64,000 bases of DNA from Anaerolineales bacterium (lineage in GTDB: Bacteria > Chloroflexota > Anaerolineae > Anaerolineales > E44-bin32), in the NCBI GenBank assembly GCA_037382465.1, contig JARRPX010000002.1, positions 70,714-134,713 of the forward strand, in the 5' to 3' direction. Under the pieces are notes generated by a model. That model was not told the DNA's origin, ran no database searches, and was given only the letters and a program-made list of their open reading frames with translations. How positions within the stretch are numbered: the first letter of the stretch is position 1; each line of letters begins with the position of its first letter. Position numbers and translations under genes: made by a program. Shown here one piece after another: positions 26,859-49,172 of this stretch.

Positions 26859-27713
26859 ATGATGGCAAACCTGAGTACGATCGCAATATTAAATCAAAGA
26901 AAAGGGGTCGGTAAAACGACAACTACATTATCCTTGGGCATGAAACTCGCCGAACAGGGATATCGTATTCTTCTTGTCGATTTGGATCCTCAAGCATCGC
27001 TCAGCGCCGTTTGCGGCGTTAGCGATAGCGAGAAAGGTACGCTGGCGTCCGTTTTTGGTGGTTCCCTGCCCGGAAAAGTTGGTTTGCAGGACATACTACG
27101 CGATATTCTGCCGGACTATTGCTGCTATTTGGCCCCGGCAGATCTAGCCCTGGCTCAATCCGAGTTGGGTTTGATATTCCGTATCGGGCGCGAACATGTA
27201 TTAAAAGCAGCTCTCGATTCCATCTCAATGGACTTCGATGTCGCGTTATTGGATTGCCCACCGAGTTTGGGCATGATGACGCTCAACGCGCTCAACGCAG
27301 CCGATACCGTTCTCATCCCCGTTAGACCAGAACTCAATCACCTGCGGGGAATTTGCTTGCTCGGTACTGTGATCGAGCGAGTAAAAAGGGAACTAAATCC
27401 TCATCTCAGCATCCTCGGCGTCGTCGTAACCTATTACAATCACACACTCTCGCATCATCAGAAAGCAGTCCGCGCTATACAAGCCGCAGGACTTCCACTC
27501 CTTCCTGTTGGTATCCAAGAGAGTAAAGCCGCGTCTGAGAACAGCAGTCCGGATCTGGACCCGGCCATCAGTGTCTCCGGAGATTCACAAGCGATGAGCC
27601 ACCTGGCCGATCATGTATCGAGATGGATTAGCCGACACGAAAGCAAAATAAGCAGCATAGAACGGAAATCCGAATTCGATCTAGAACCGATTGACAAAGA
27701 TACCTCAAAATAG
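26859..27713 (+). CDS. ParA/MinD-family ATPase with altered Walker A
   Basis: A 284-residue deviant Walker-A ATPase. The P loop reads NQRKGVGKTT, where the usual sequence is NQKGGVGKTT: the signature Lys is Arg14 and the first Gly is Lys15, while the catalytic GKTT is kept. Other landmarks are LVDLDPQASLSAV, DVALLDCPPSLGMMTLNAL (Walker B) and VVTYYNHTLSHH. The family forms ATP-dependent dimers that position cargo. No parB or centromere-like repeats are adjacent. It begins 8 bases after the secreted protein and precedes a roadblock/GTPase pair. Two ATG codons (26859 and 26862) are possible. Confidence 0.78.
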   Translation: MMANLSTIAILNQRKGVGKTTTTLSLGMKLAEQGYRILLVDLDPQASLSAVCGVSDSEKGTLASVFGGSLPGKVGLQDILRDILPDYCCYLAPADLALAQSELGLIFRIGREHVLKAALDSISMDFDVALLDCPPSLGMMTLNALNAADTVLIPVRPELNHLRGICLLGTVIERVKRELNPHLSILGVVVTYYNHTLSHHQKAVRAIQAAGLPLLPVGIQESKAASENSSPDLDPAISVSGDSQAMSHLADHVSRWISRHESKISSIERKSEFDLEPIDKDTSK

Positions 27714-27786
27714 GACGACGAAGCCGACGTCATTCCAGGCTACATCTACAAGTGAGCAAATCGCAACTCAACGTGCGACGGTGGAC

Positions 27787-27815
27787 TTGCCAGGTCGGGC
27801 CGCATGTACCATAAT
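27787..27815 (+). promoter_or_regulatory. Possible promoter before the roadblock-like gene
   Basis: TTGCCA (27787-27792) and CATAAT (27810-27815) are separated by 17 bases, 126 bases before the start codon at 27941. Confidence 0.35.
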
Positions 27816-27940
27816 GGCCACTAGACAAAGCGCGTTTATAAGTGTAAAGTACCAAATGCTTTATCAACGCTGTACGTGTAAAATATCTAGCACGCGTCAT
27901 CCTGGTAGTTCAAATCGATAAATAGAGGTTTTATTCAGTT

Positions 27941-28702
27941 ATGTTCGATAGGCTACGTCACTTGCTCCGTTCAGAAGGAAGCGCCGAAGATGCCAATGAT
28001 TCGAGCCAACGACAAGCGAATCCACCTACGGGCACTCCTTCAGTAAATACCGACCATTCTCCGAAGAACGTCGTAGACCAGGCCGAAGAACAACAAACGT
28101 CCGAGGACCCTGAGGAGAATGCACAGGTCTATATCGAGCGGGTGCGCAAGAAAATGAGTAAGCTGGCGGAGGAATTTGCCACCGGCATGATCAATCGCGA
28201 ACAATTCCAGGAACTCTTCGATCACTATCAAAAAGAGATGCGGACGATCGAGACCTGGCTGGACACATGGCCCGGTTCTGACGCCTGGCGAAAAGCCAGG
28301 ACGGAAGGTAAAAGCGTTGCAATCCGCAGACGGCATCAAGCCCGTGTGATTGGTTACGCTATTTACAAGAACGACTCGGGCATGCCGATCGCCACGATTG
28401 GAGAGTTCGAACTCGACGCTGCCTTGATCGTCCCAATGCTGTCGTCCTACCGCTCCGCAACACGCGAAATTTTTGGAGCTGGGATGCGCTCGACACAGAT
28501 CGAGAACGGCAACTGGTTGTGCTTCGTTCCCGGCGAGTTGACGACGCTGATGACACTTTACACAACCGAACCTTCCGCCAATCAATTATCGAAGCTCGAC
28601 GATCTACATAGACTGTTCGAAAGAGCGAATCGGAACTTCCTCAACGAGGACGTGGTGGACGCGTCAAATCTTGCACTGCCACACAAATCACTCCTAAAAT
28701 GA
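27941..28702 (+). CDS. Hypothetical protein with probable roadblock-like C-terminal domain
   Basis: A 253-residue soluble protein. Residues about 10-60 are polar and disordered, residues 60-120 are a charged helix pair (YIERVRKKMSKLAEEFATGMINREQFQELFDHY), and the last 110 residues have the feel of a roadblock/LC7 fold (GMPIATIGEFELDAALIVPML, GNWLCFVPGELTTLMTLYT, LSKLDDLHRLFERAN). Roadblock proteins bind small Ras-like GTPases. The domain call is pattern-based and uncertain. The next gene, 31 bases downstream on the same strand, is a Rab-like GTPase, which supports the idea of a regulator-GTPase pair. Confidence 0.55.
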   Translation: MFDRLRHLLRSEGSAEDANDSSQRQANPPTGTPSVNTDHSPKNVVDQAEEQQTSEDPEENAQVYIERVRKKMSKLAEEFATGMINREQFQELFDHYQKEMRTIETWLDTWPGSDAWRKARTEGKSVAIRRRHQARVIGYAIYKNDSGMPIATIGEFELDAALIVPMLSSYRSATREIFGAGMRSTQIENGNWLCFVPGELTTLMTLYTTEPSANQLSKLDDLHRLFERANRNFLNEDVVDASNLALPHKSLLK

Positions 28703-28733
28703 CTGAAACTGGATTGTAGAAGGTCCGCCCATC

Positions 28734-29237
28734 ATGGAAAAGCTACCGGTATTAAAGGTTGTGATTGCTGGCGACGAAAACGTGGGAAAGACTTCTTTAG
28801 TGCGTCGCTACTGTGAAGGGAAATTCGACGAATCACGCGTGGCAACCATTGGTGTCGATTTTCAAACCCAAACTTGCCATTTACCCACTGGCGATGTGAA
28901 ACTTTCAATCTGGGACATGGCCGGGCAGGAAAGATTCCGCTTCTTCCGCCAGGATTTCTACCGGGGAGCGTTGGCCACGGCACTCGTGTATGATGTAACT
29001 TTACCGGAGAGCCTGGCCAATCTCGAGACTTGGGCCAAGGACGTCCTCGAAGTGGTACCTACCCAAAAATTCATCGTTGTAGGTAACAAGATCGACATGG
29101 ATAATGCAGTAGATGCTTCCATTGCGCAGCAATTTGCCGTGCAGCATACCGCGACGCATATCTACACCAGCGCGAAAACCGGCGCCGGCGTCGAAGATCT
29201 TTTCACCTCACTCGCCACATTGGCGGTAAATAAATAA
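28734..29237 (+). CDS. Rab-like small GTPase
   Basis: A 167-residue stand-alone Ras-superfamily GTPase with strikingly eukaryote-like motifs. G1 is GDENVGKTS (residues 13-21). The switch I Thr is T38 in ATIGVDF, and switch II is WDMAGQERF with Q65 in place. Later motifs are FYRGALATALVYDVT, G4 NKID (118-121) and G5 TSAK (145-148). Intact Gln65 and Thr38 suggest functional GTP hydrolysis. No C-terminal Cys for prenylation exists, so membrane attachment would need a partner. Bacterial members of this superfamily (MglA, Rup families) often pair with roadblock proteins, as here. Confidence 0.9.
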   Translation: MEKLPVLKVVIAGDENVGKTSLVRRYCEGKFDESRVATIGVDFQTQTCHLPTGDVKLSIWDMAGQERFRFFRQDFYRGALATALVYDVTLPESLANLETWAKDVLEVVPTQKFIVVGNKIDMDNAVDASIAQQFAVQHTATHIYTSAKTGAGVEDLFTSLATLAVNK

Positions 29238-29266: not shown

Positions 29267-29300
29267 AAGGCTGCATTACCACGCAGCCTTCTTATTTATT
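29267..29300. terminator. Terminator between the GTPase and hflX
   Basis: AAGGCTGC and GCAGCCTT form an 8-base stem with an 8-base loop, followed on the plus strand by CTTATTTATTT. The flanking genes converge here. Confidence 0.65.
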
Positions 29301-29331: not shown

Positions 29332-30577
29332 TCAGTCTTGATTTCTGTTCATCAGATAGATCTGATATTGCGGTAGATATTTCTGGGGTAAACGGCCCGA
29401 AAGTATGACGGTCTCCGTGCGATTTTCTTGATGTTCAACACGGCCGAGTTGATGAAAGAGGCTGATTAATCTGCCCGAACGATAAGGTATCTCGACACAG
29501 ATCTCTGCCAGTTGCTCATTCAGTTCGATTTCGATCGCGGATAGAAGCGATGTTATACCATCTCCACGCAGCGCAGAGATTGGTACTGCTCTTTCGAATT
29601 CATCGATGAATTCGTGAACGCTTTCTGGATTTGGTAATCGATCGATTTTGTTCAATGCGGTGAAGCGTGGGATATCCTTATCGACGATCTCATCGAGAGT
29701 CGCTCGGACCGCTTCTGCTTGCGCAAGCGCATTGGGATGCGTGACGTCGACGACGTGCAGAAGCAAATCTGAATCGCCAATTTCTTCCAAGGTTGCCCGG
29801 AATGCCGCCACGAGCGTCGTGGGCAGTTTTTGGATGAACCCTACGGTATCCGTGAAGAGCACTTCGTTGCCACCGGGCAGCTCGACCCTACGGGTCGTCG
29901 GATCGAGAGTGGCAAAGAGTTTATCCGCAACGAGCACGTTGGCATTCGAGAGTTGATTGAGTAGCGTCGATTTACCGGCATTGGTGTAACCCACCAACGC
30001 AACCGTTGGGATTGCTGCACGTCTTCGCTGTTCGCGGTGCCGTCCTCGATGTTCCCGGACCTTCTCCAACTGACTTCGTAGATTGGCAATCCTTCTGCCG
30101 ATCTCCCGGCGATCCACTTCCAGCTGGGTCTCGCCCGGGCCTCGCAAGCCCACGCCCCCGACCGATCCCCAGCTCCACCTGCAGTGCTCCTTCGCGAGTT
30201 ATTGCATGCTGCGCGAATATATCCAGGATAAGAGCTGTACGGTCGAGGACGCGCACTTCATCTCCGAAGATTTTCTCCAATTCCCGCTGGTGACGCGGGG
30301 ATAACTCCTCGTCGAATATCACGACGTCTGCAACGGTGTTCTCGATTAGATCCTTGATCTCTGCGATTTTTCCGGATCCGACCAGCGTTTTGGGGTTCGG
30401 CCGCGAAATGTGTTGGGAAGCCGTACCGACGACTGAAAGGCCCGCCGTATCCGCGAGGAGCTTCAGTTCTTCTAGGGAATCTTTAAGCGACAGCAGACTA
30501 TGCTGGCCGTCGAGTTCGACGCCAACAAGAAAGGCGCGTTCCTGGGGTAGTTCAATATTCTGTGGTTTTTTAGACAT
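29332..30577 (-). pseudogene. hflX: GTPase HflX, broken by frameshift plus internal deletion
   Basis: HflX is a ribosome-splitting GTPase. The N-terminal part reads from ATG 30577 with good family blocks (VGSGKIAEIKDL, VIFDEELSPRHQRELEK, VLDRTALILDIFAQHAITREGALQVEL) and then goes out of phase. The GTPase part reads in another frame from about 30156 (LRGPGETQLEVDRR, GYTNAGKST Walker A, FTDTVGFIQKLP, LNKID) to 29332. Intact HflX has about 20 extra residues between QVEL and GIG-RGPGET, forming a helix. Those are missing here and the frame is shifted at a G-rich run near 30150-30165. A sequencing or assembly fault is possible. Confidence 0.8.
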
Positions 30578-48434: not shown

Positions 48435-49172
48435 ATGATGAAGAGAGAAACTTCCCGCATCCCGCTGCTTTCAATCGCCATCTTTTGCTTCCTTGTGGGA
48501 GCTTTGAGTGTTCTCATCAATCTATCCAATCAAGATAATACTGCAGAAAAAACTGCCGCTCCTCCCACCGAATCCGATGCAAGTCGGAAGACGGCGCTGA
48601 TTCTCGGGGTGGATCGCCTAAATCAATCCGATCCGCAATTGCTTTCCGTATGGATTGCCACTTTTCATTTTCCCGATAAAGAAATCGTCCTTTATGGATT
48701 TCCGACCGATCTACAATCATCCGCATCCCCGATCCCACTTGCGAATTCATTCGGCTGGAGTCCCGATAACGGAGTTGATGGGAACTTCCTCGCTGCCGTC
48801 CAAAAATCCACCGGCGTCGAACCCGATGTAGTCCTCATCTTGGATGAAGTCGGCTATGCATCATTGATCGACTACCTCGAGGGCATCACGCTGACCGGGA
48901 ATTACATGGATGGTCCGACCGTGATCAGTGCCCTGCGCGTTTTTTACGACGACCCGCTCATCTCCCTGGAAGCACAATCGAAGGTCCTGCGCGCCCTTGC
49001 GGAACGTGTCGAGATCCTGGGCGGGTCCCCGAATCTTACCCCGCTGTTTAATCTGATCCCGGAACATGCTTACACCTCCGAATCTCCGTCGGTCGTCGCA
49101 GTTACCTTTGGTTTGCTGCTGCCGCTGCGTTCCGACGCGATACACATCCAGGAATGGCAAGGATCTGATTAG
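48435..49172 (+). CDS. LytR-CpsA-Psr-like exported protein, divergent
   Basis: A 245-residue protein with one N-terminal membrane segment (IPLLSIAIFCFLVGALSVLI). The region TALILGVDRLNQSDPQLLSVWIATFH to VLYGFPTDLQ, and PDVVLILDEVGYASLIDYLEGITLTG, follows the LCP strand order (normally DTILVASIDP to SIPRDT, then DFVDLVDALGGV). The Arg-Asp catalytic signature of LCP enzymes is not conserved, so ligase activity toward cell-wall glycopolymers is doubtful. It lies after the sigma-54 cassette without a visible promoter link. The function is tentative. Confidence 0.5.
   Translation: MMKRETSRIPLLSIAIFCFLVGALSVLINLSNQDNTAEKTAAPPTESDASRKTALILGVDRLNQSDPQLLSVWIATFHFPDKEIVLYGFPTDLQSSASPIPLANSFGWSPDNGVDGNFLAAVQKSTGVEPDVVLILDEVGYASLIDYLEGITLTGNYMDGPTVISALRVFYDDPLISLEAQSKVLRALAERVEILGGSPNLTPLFNLIPEHAYTSESPSVVAVTFGLLLPLRSDAIHIQEWQGSD

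Follow-up and report, generated by a model that had tools for sequence, protein, structure and literature searches.

A Rab-like small GTPase is encoded beside a partner protein with a predicted roadblock/longin-type domain across many families of Chloroflexota

The stretch of Anaerolineales DNA analyzed here (the window; 64,000 nucleotides, numbered from its first letter) lies in a 3.7-Mb genome assembly and carries, on the plus strand, two open reading frames (ORFs) separated by 31 bp. The first encodes a 253-aa protein, termed the partner herein, and the second a 167-aa Rab-like small GTPase. From the sequence, this two-gene unit probably ends at a terminator-like hairpin. The features of the locus are as follows.

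26862..27713, plus strand: ParA-like ATPase, 5' of the pair (AAA_31, 3.5e-42)
27941..28702, plus strand: partner protein (UP) gene, 253 aa, no Pfam or NCBIfam family; AlphaFold2 model, relatives
28109..28267, plus strand: predicted helical hairpin of the partner, residues 57-109 (alignments; AlphaFold2 pLDDT about 84-95 over residues 61-110)
28292..28645, plus strand: predicted roadblock/longin-type domain of the partner, about residues 118-235 (AlphaFold2 models of partner and fusion, Foldseek, weak profile match)
28418..28477, plus strand: helix alpha-2 of that domain, residues 160-179, conserved in GTPase-linked members; predicted GTPase-binding face
28734..29237, plus strand: Rab-like small GTPase gene, 167 aa (Pfam Ras, PDB Rab18, tree)
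28770..28796, plus strand: G1 P-loop GDENVGKTS, residues 13-21 (sequence, alignment)
28845..28847, plus strand: G2 Thr38 in switch I (sequence; invariant in the alignment of paired GTPases)
28914..28928, plus strand: G3 DMAGQ, residues 61-65, with putative catalytic Gln65 (sequence; invariant in the same alignment)
29085..29096, plus strand: G4 NKID, residues 118-121 (sequence)
29166..29177, plus strand: G5 TSAK, residues 145-148 (sequence)
29267..29290, plus strand: terminator-like hairpin with a T-rich tail, some 30 bp 3' of the GTPase gene (consensus scan only)

The GTPase matched Pfam Ras at 1.8e-44, and its 60 best PDB chains were all Rabs, led by Rab18 (1.7e-32). A preliminary description of this DNA had listed GDENVGKTS, T38, Q65, NKID and TSAK, remarked on the resemblance to eukaryotic Rabs and noted the lack of a prenylation Cys, and each of these observations held. 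Judged by its motifs, the GTPase is complete in the Ras/Rab catalytic set G1-G5; its C terminus (...TSLATLAVNK) carries no prenylation Cys, the only Cys residues being at positions 27 and 48.

The phylogeny that the preliminary description had proposed was computed with 53 GTPases and placed the protein apart from MglA, on the Rab/Rup side. GTPases of partner-bearing genomes formed one clade (97/94), from which MglA types (98/98) and the Gln-less Group 1 Rup types (93/89) were separate. Eukaryotic Rab, Ras and Rho proteins fell on the same side as the paired GTPases and apart from Group 1 Rup (92/68), a Rab placement that is not firmly supported, with Rab21 misplaced, inner support low and several branches long. 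MglA identity was ruled out by the G3 motif, the insertion and the tree: the GTPase retains the G3 Asp (DMAGQ) and lacks the G1-G2 insertion of MglA, whereas MglA-type rows of the same alignment show both the insertion and the loss of Asp. The Rup family as a whole accommodates the GTPase, with Ras-like G1-G5 motifs and a tree position on the side away from MglA.

Group 1 Rup members occur in Chloroflexi (PMC4316618), and they have a G3 without Gln and, as neighbors, a coiled-coil protein, an OmpA-type protein and a signaling output gene or module (PMC4316618). None of these features is present in the module described here, and Gln65 is invariant among the aligned paired GTPases. Group 1-like genes from other Chloroflexota and from Mesorhizobium read AGG, AGS or AGE and have neighbors of the Group 1 kind. 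In other families of the order, Gln-less Rab/Rup-like GTPases (L087, L088, L089 and L092) adjoin genes for histidine kinases; in L087 a PAS domain was recognized. The genome of the window also encodes an MglA-type GTPase next to a DUF4388 (PATAN-like) protein (L099:1175-2414, contig C35), and six roadblock genes elsewhere in it exceed the Pfam cut-off, three of them at C2:173000-179300.

Searches of Pfam and NCBIfam assigned no family to the partner or its relatives, and comparisons of the partner with Pfam, NCBIfam and PDB sequences gave chance matches only. The roadblock model Robl_LC7 (PF03259) matched none of 32 proteins (the window partner and 31 relatives), while the true roadblock genes of the same genome, used as a positive control, did match it. 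In the AlphaFold2 model of the partner (mean pLDDT 70.7, with part of alpha-2, residues 172-180, below 50), a disordered N terminus precedes the helical hairpin, in which the motifs G82-x-[IV]-N/S-R-x-x-F and HY are conserved. The C-terminal domain that follows was modeled as helix 122-131, strands 136-143 and 149-154, helix 160-178, strands 183-186, 192-197 and 201-207, and helix 213-229. This order, alpha-beta-beta-alpha-beta-beta-beta-alpha, is that of roadblock domains, and the models of the partner and of a natural fusion described below agree on it.

Foldseek searches of the PDB returned, as best matches, almost exclusively roadblock/LC7, longin-type (AP2 sigma, Sec22b, Mon1-Ccz1), Ragulator and profilin structures; probabilities were mostly 0.96-1.00, but the best E-value was about 2e-3, and the model does not separate the roadblock, longin and profilin folds. 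Superposition on the Streptomyces roadblock protein 3kye gave 3.6 A over 104 columns. When a profile of the partner was compared by hhalign with 25 roadblock domains from related genomes, P fell from 0.07 to 0.009 and 0.004 as the partner alignment was widened, a weak match; none of 200 column shuffles reached the true roadblock score, yet a reversed profile scored 20.5 against 21.9 for the true one. Because the profile match is weak and the reversed control close, the fold claim rests on structure prediction and not on sequence. The preliminary description had judged by eye that the C-terminal region looks like roadblock/LC7. The predicted fold agrees with that guess, no Pfam model does, and the profile search that it had recommended gave the equivocal result above; the confident non-roadblock fold that it had named as a refutation did not appear. 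Prediction gives good support to a two-part architecture, with the helical hairpin ahead of the roadblock/longin-type domain.

Both proteins were searched for in 61 relatives. Close homologs of both were present in 18 genomes and of neither in the remaining 43, so that all 18 genomes with one gene have the other, and the pairing is not absent from related genomes, as the preliminary description had allowed it might be. The two genes were adjacent in 15 of the 18, lay at contig ends in one (G029) and were apart in two (G022 and G024); in G028, partner and GTPase form a single fused ORF of 383 aa. Wider sampling, which covered the class and the phylum, added further families with adjacent pairs, one of them outside the class, and in two families the gene order was reversed. 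Counting neighboring and fused genes together, linkage was observed in 13 families of Chloroflexota, and major groupings are common to the partner tree and the GTPase tree. Many families of the phylum encode a Rab-like GTPase next to a protein whose architecture is conserved, in some cases as one fused polypeptide, and this pairing is old. Broad literature searches on Rab-like GTPases in Chloroflexi or Anaerolineae returned nothing on this pair, a scan of a genome collection with one query sequence returned one close relative, and a plasmid search yielded no partner homolog, the GTPase homologs found there being of Rup or Roco types.

Variants of the pair were also observed. Family f60 (L147:591-1232, L148 and L149) has GTPase and partner linked in reversed order, and in L147 the degenerate G3 of the GTPase (DIFESTDY) resembles that of a pseudo-GTPase. 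Inside the paired-GTPase clade sits one unpaired GTPase of family f25 (L182:1477-2358; G3 DVGGQ), fused behind a region that by eye resembles a response-regulator receiver domain (no Pfam match), and the family also has a 117-aa protein that corresponds to the helical hairpin of the partner alone.

Partner-like proteins are not confined to genomes with the GTPase. Ten genomes encode one and have no such GTPase, which indicates that the partner domain can serve without it, and the genome of the window itself holds an unpaired partner paralog on contig C69. In genus g3, a second partner copy lies unpaired in a conserved neighborhood of its own (L070, L072 and L093). It is the sole close copy in G022 and G024, where it may serve the GTPase from a distance; the gene near it in these two genomes matches the surroundings of the additional unpaired partner in the related genome G002.

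Conservation in the partner points to helix alpha-2 as a likely contact face. In a comparison of GTPase-linked partners with partners from GTPase-free genomes, alpha-2 positions 162, 164, 168, 171, 173 and 176 made up 6 of the top 15 (hypergeometric P 7e-4), and the alpha-2 window ranked second of 176 sliding windows for linkage-dependent conservation, a signal that is partly one of shared descent because the GTPase-linked partners are nearly one clade. The residues marked in this helix are L162, S168, R171, A173, E176 and G179. Neither the helical hairpin nor helix alpha-3 showed a contrast between linked and unlinked partners. In the MglA-MglB complex, the alpha-2 helices of MglB bind the beta-2 strand of MglA (PMC6785124), and in TRAPP and Mon1-Ccz1 it is the longin alpha-1 helices that bind the Rab (PMC5216073). 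The AlphaFold2 model of the natural fusion (pTM 0.59) gave no reliable interface.

Taken together, we consider it probable that the products of the pair are a GTPase switch and its dedicated partner of roadblock/longin type, working in the manner of MglA and MglB. The partner would dimerize through its roadblock/longin-type domain, and the paired alpha-2 helices would then form a platform that holds the GTPase at its switch region, much as MglB holds MglA and longin dimers hold Rabs. This contact might set the nucleotide state of the GTPase or, perhaps, place the GTPase in the cell; since the GTPase has no lipid anchor, localization could be supplied by the partner. MglB contributes no catalytic residues and acts by orienting those of its GTPase (PMC11016934). 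On this analogy, GAP action by the partner appears somewhat more likely than GEF or scaffold action, because MglB supplies no catalytic residues and the GTPase here has its own Gln65.

The preliminary description had drawn the comparison with MglA and its roadblock GAPs, and the pairing and the predicted fold sustain that part of it; the GTPase, which lies on the Rab/Rup side and keeps the G3 Asp and Gln, is not MglA-like. As in MglA-MglB, a small Ras-superfamily GTPase and a predicted roadblock-type protein form a two-gene unit, with alpha-2 as the likely contact face. Unlike in MglA-MglB, the GTPase is free of the G1-G2 insertion, and the partner is a longer protein with an N-terminal helical hairpin, no Robl_LC7 match and a naturally fused form. 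Most likely, the pair works like MglA-MglB but with a GTPase from the Rab/Rup side.

With Rup proteins the GTPase shares Ras-like G1-G5 motifs, the absence of the MglA insertion and similarity to Rab, Ras and Rho, and it differs from Group 1 in keeping Gln65 and in the tree, which separates the two groups. The Rup survey found that all GTPases encoded near MglB homologs belong to the MglA clade, and the Rup family was set apart by the absence of MglB-homolog neighbors (PMC4316618). The GTPase described here, in contrast, adjoins a protein that is of roadblock type by predicted fold and at most a candidate MglB homolog. The module would break the rule that an MglB neighbor means an MglA, with a partner that is invisible to roadblock profiles and GTPases that lie closer to Rab than MglA does.

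In Asgard archaea, fusions of roadblock domains with GTPases exist, and small GTPase genes reportedly do not, as a rule, share operons with roadblock genes (PMC10933270). The Chloroflexota fusion resembles the Asgard ones in joining a small GTPase to a roadblock or longin domain; it differs in that linkage of the pair is the rule and that the hosts are bacteria. The union of Rab-type GTPases with roadblock/longin regulators has so far been examined mostly in Asgard archaea. If confirmed, the module would offer a simple bacterial two-protein system, together with a natural fusion, for studying how Rab-type GTPases became associated with roadblock/longin regulators.

The foremost alternative to a dedicated MglB-like regulator, possible although we lean against it, is that the partner is a downstream effector or localization scaffold whose roadblock-type domain binds the GTP form and relays the signal or positions the GTPase in the cell, leaving hydrolysis and exchange unchanged. 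Partner-like proteins in GTPase-free genomes and the unpaired paralog on contig C69 are consistent with this, since they indicate that the architecture has uses of its own, as are the Gln65 of the GTPase and its lack of a lipid anchor; roadblock domains also serve as scaffolds (PMC10933270). However, no other gene is constantly linked to the GTPase as a candidate GAP or GEF, and a dedicated regulator suits the one-to-one linkage and the fusion equally well or better.

Somewhat less likely is a role as GEF instead of GAP, with the partner acting as longin dimers do in TRAPP and Mon1-Ccz1. The GTPase lies on the Rab side of the tree, several longins from Rab GEF complexes are among the fold matches, and the helical hairpin could be an extra element of the sort that such GEFs use. 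Yet the helix before the first strand suits a roadblock domain at least as well as a longin, and the acidic wedge residue is not identifiable in the partner.

We think it improbable that the C-terminal domain is an unrelated alpha/beta domain of profilin-like order and that the genes are linked only by a shared pathway. Such a reading could draw on the lack of a significant roadblock sequence match, on the close reversed-profile control and on a model that does not tell roadblock, longin and profilin apart, but the natural fusion, a linkage that spans at least 13 families and both gene orders, and the alpha-2 pattern all point to direct contact by way of the face that would be expected. Even more doubtful is common ancestry with the eukaryotic systems, in which the pair would be the bacterial counterpart of a Rab and its longin/roadblock regulator, a partnership existing in bacteria apart from MglA-MglB. 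The likeness to eukaryotic Rabs and regulators such as TRAPP, Mon1-Ccz1 and DENN lies in the Rab-like sequence and in a partner predicted to share their superfold; unlike those Rabs, the GTPase has no hypervariable tail or prenylation Cys and belongs to a two-gene bacterial unit.

The ParA-like ATPase that the preliminary description had placed before the pair is indeed there. That all three genes form one operon with a positioning or segregation role, comparable to polar MglA systems, is very improbable: ParA lies 5' of the pair in the window as well as in several genomes of the same family, but in all other families examined it is absent beside the pair, and an extra gene (in relatives) or 227 bp without a recognizable gene (in the window) splits it from the pair. 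ParA was therefore rejected as part of the module and, being linked in only part of one family, is a lineage-specific neighbor. A remnant of the relatives' extra gene was sought in 27714-27940 and was not found. That gene encodes a conserved protein that matches no Pfam family and has one putative membrane helix; it is located between ParA and the partner or GTPase gene in several relatives (L067:5176-5916, L069:4302-5069, L071:6544-7335, L073:993-1766 and L084:3207-4073); a homolog lies elsewhere in the window at 48444-49151.

The usual deviant Walker A motif of ParA proteins reads NQKGGVGKTT. The Walker A region of the window's ATPase (26862-27713) reads NQRKGVGKTT, and relatives read NQRTGVGKTS, NQRMGVGKTA, NQRAGVGKTS and NPRDKVGKTL, so that the signature Lys is consistently Arg in these proteins. 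Downstream of the pair, on the minus strand, an HflX-like gene (29332-30577) is divided between two ORFs that overlap and differ in frame, one comprising GTP-bdg_N and the other the middle region and the GTPase. A short stretch is apparently missing at their junction, and the split may reflect a real frameshift or an assembly error.
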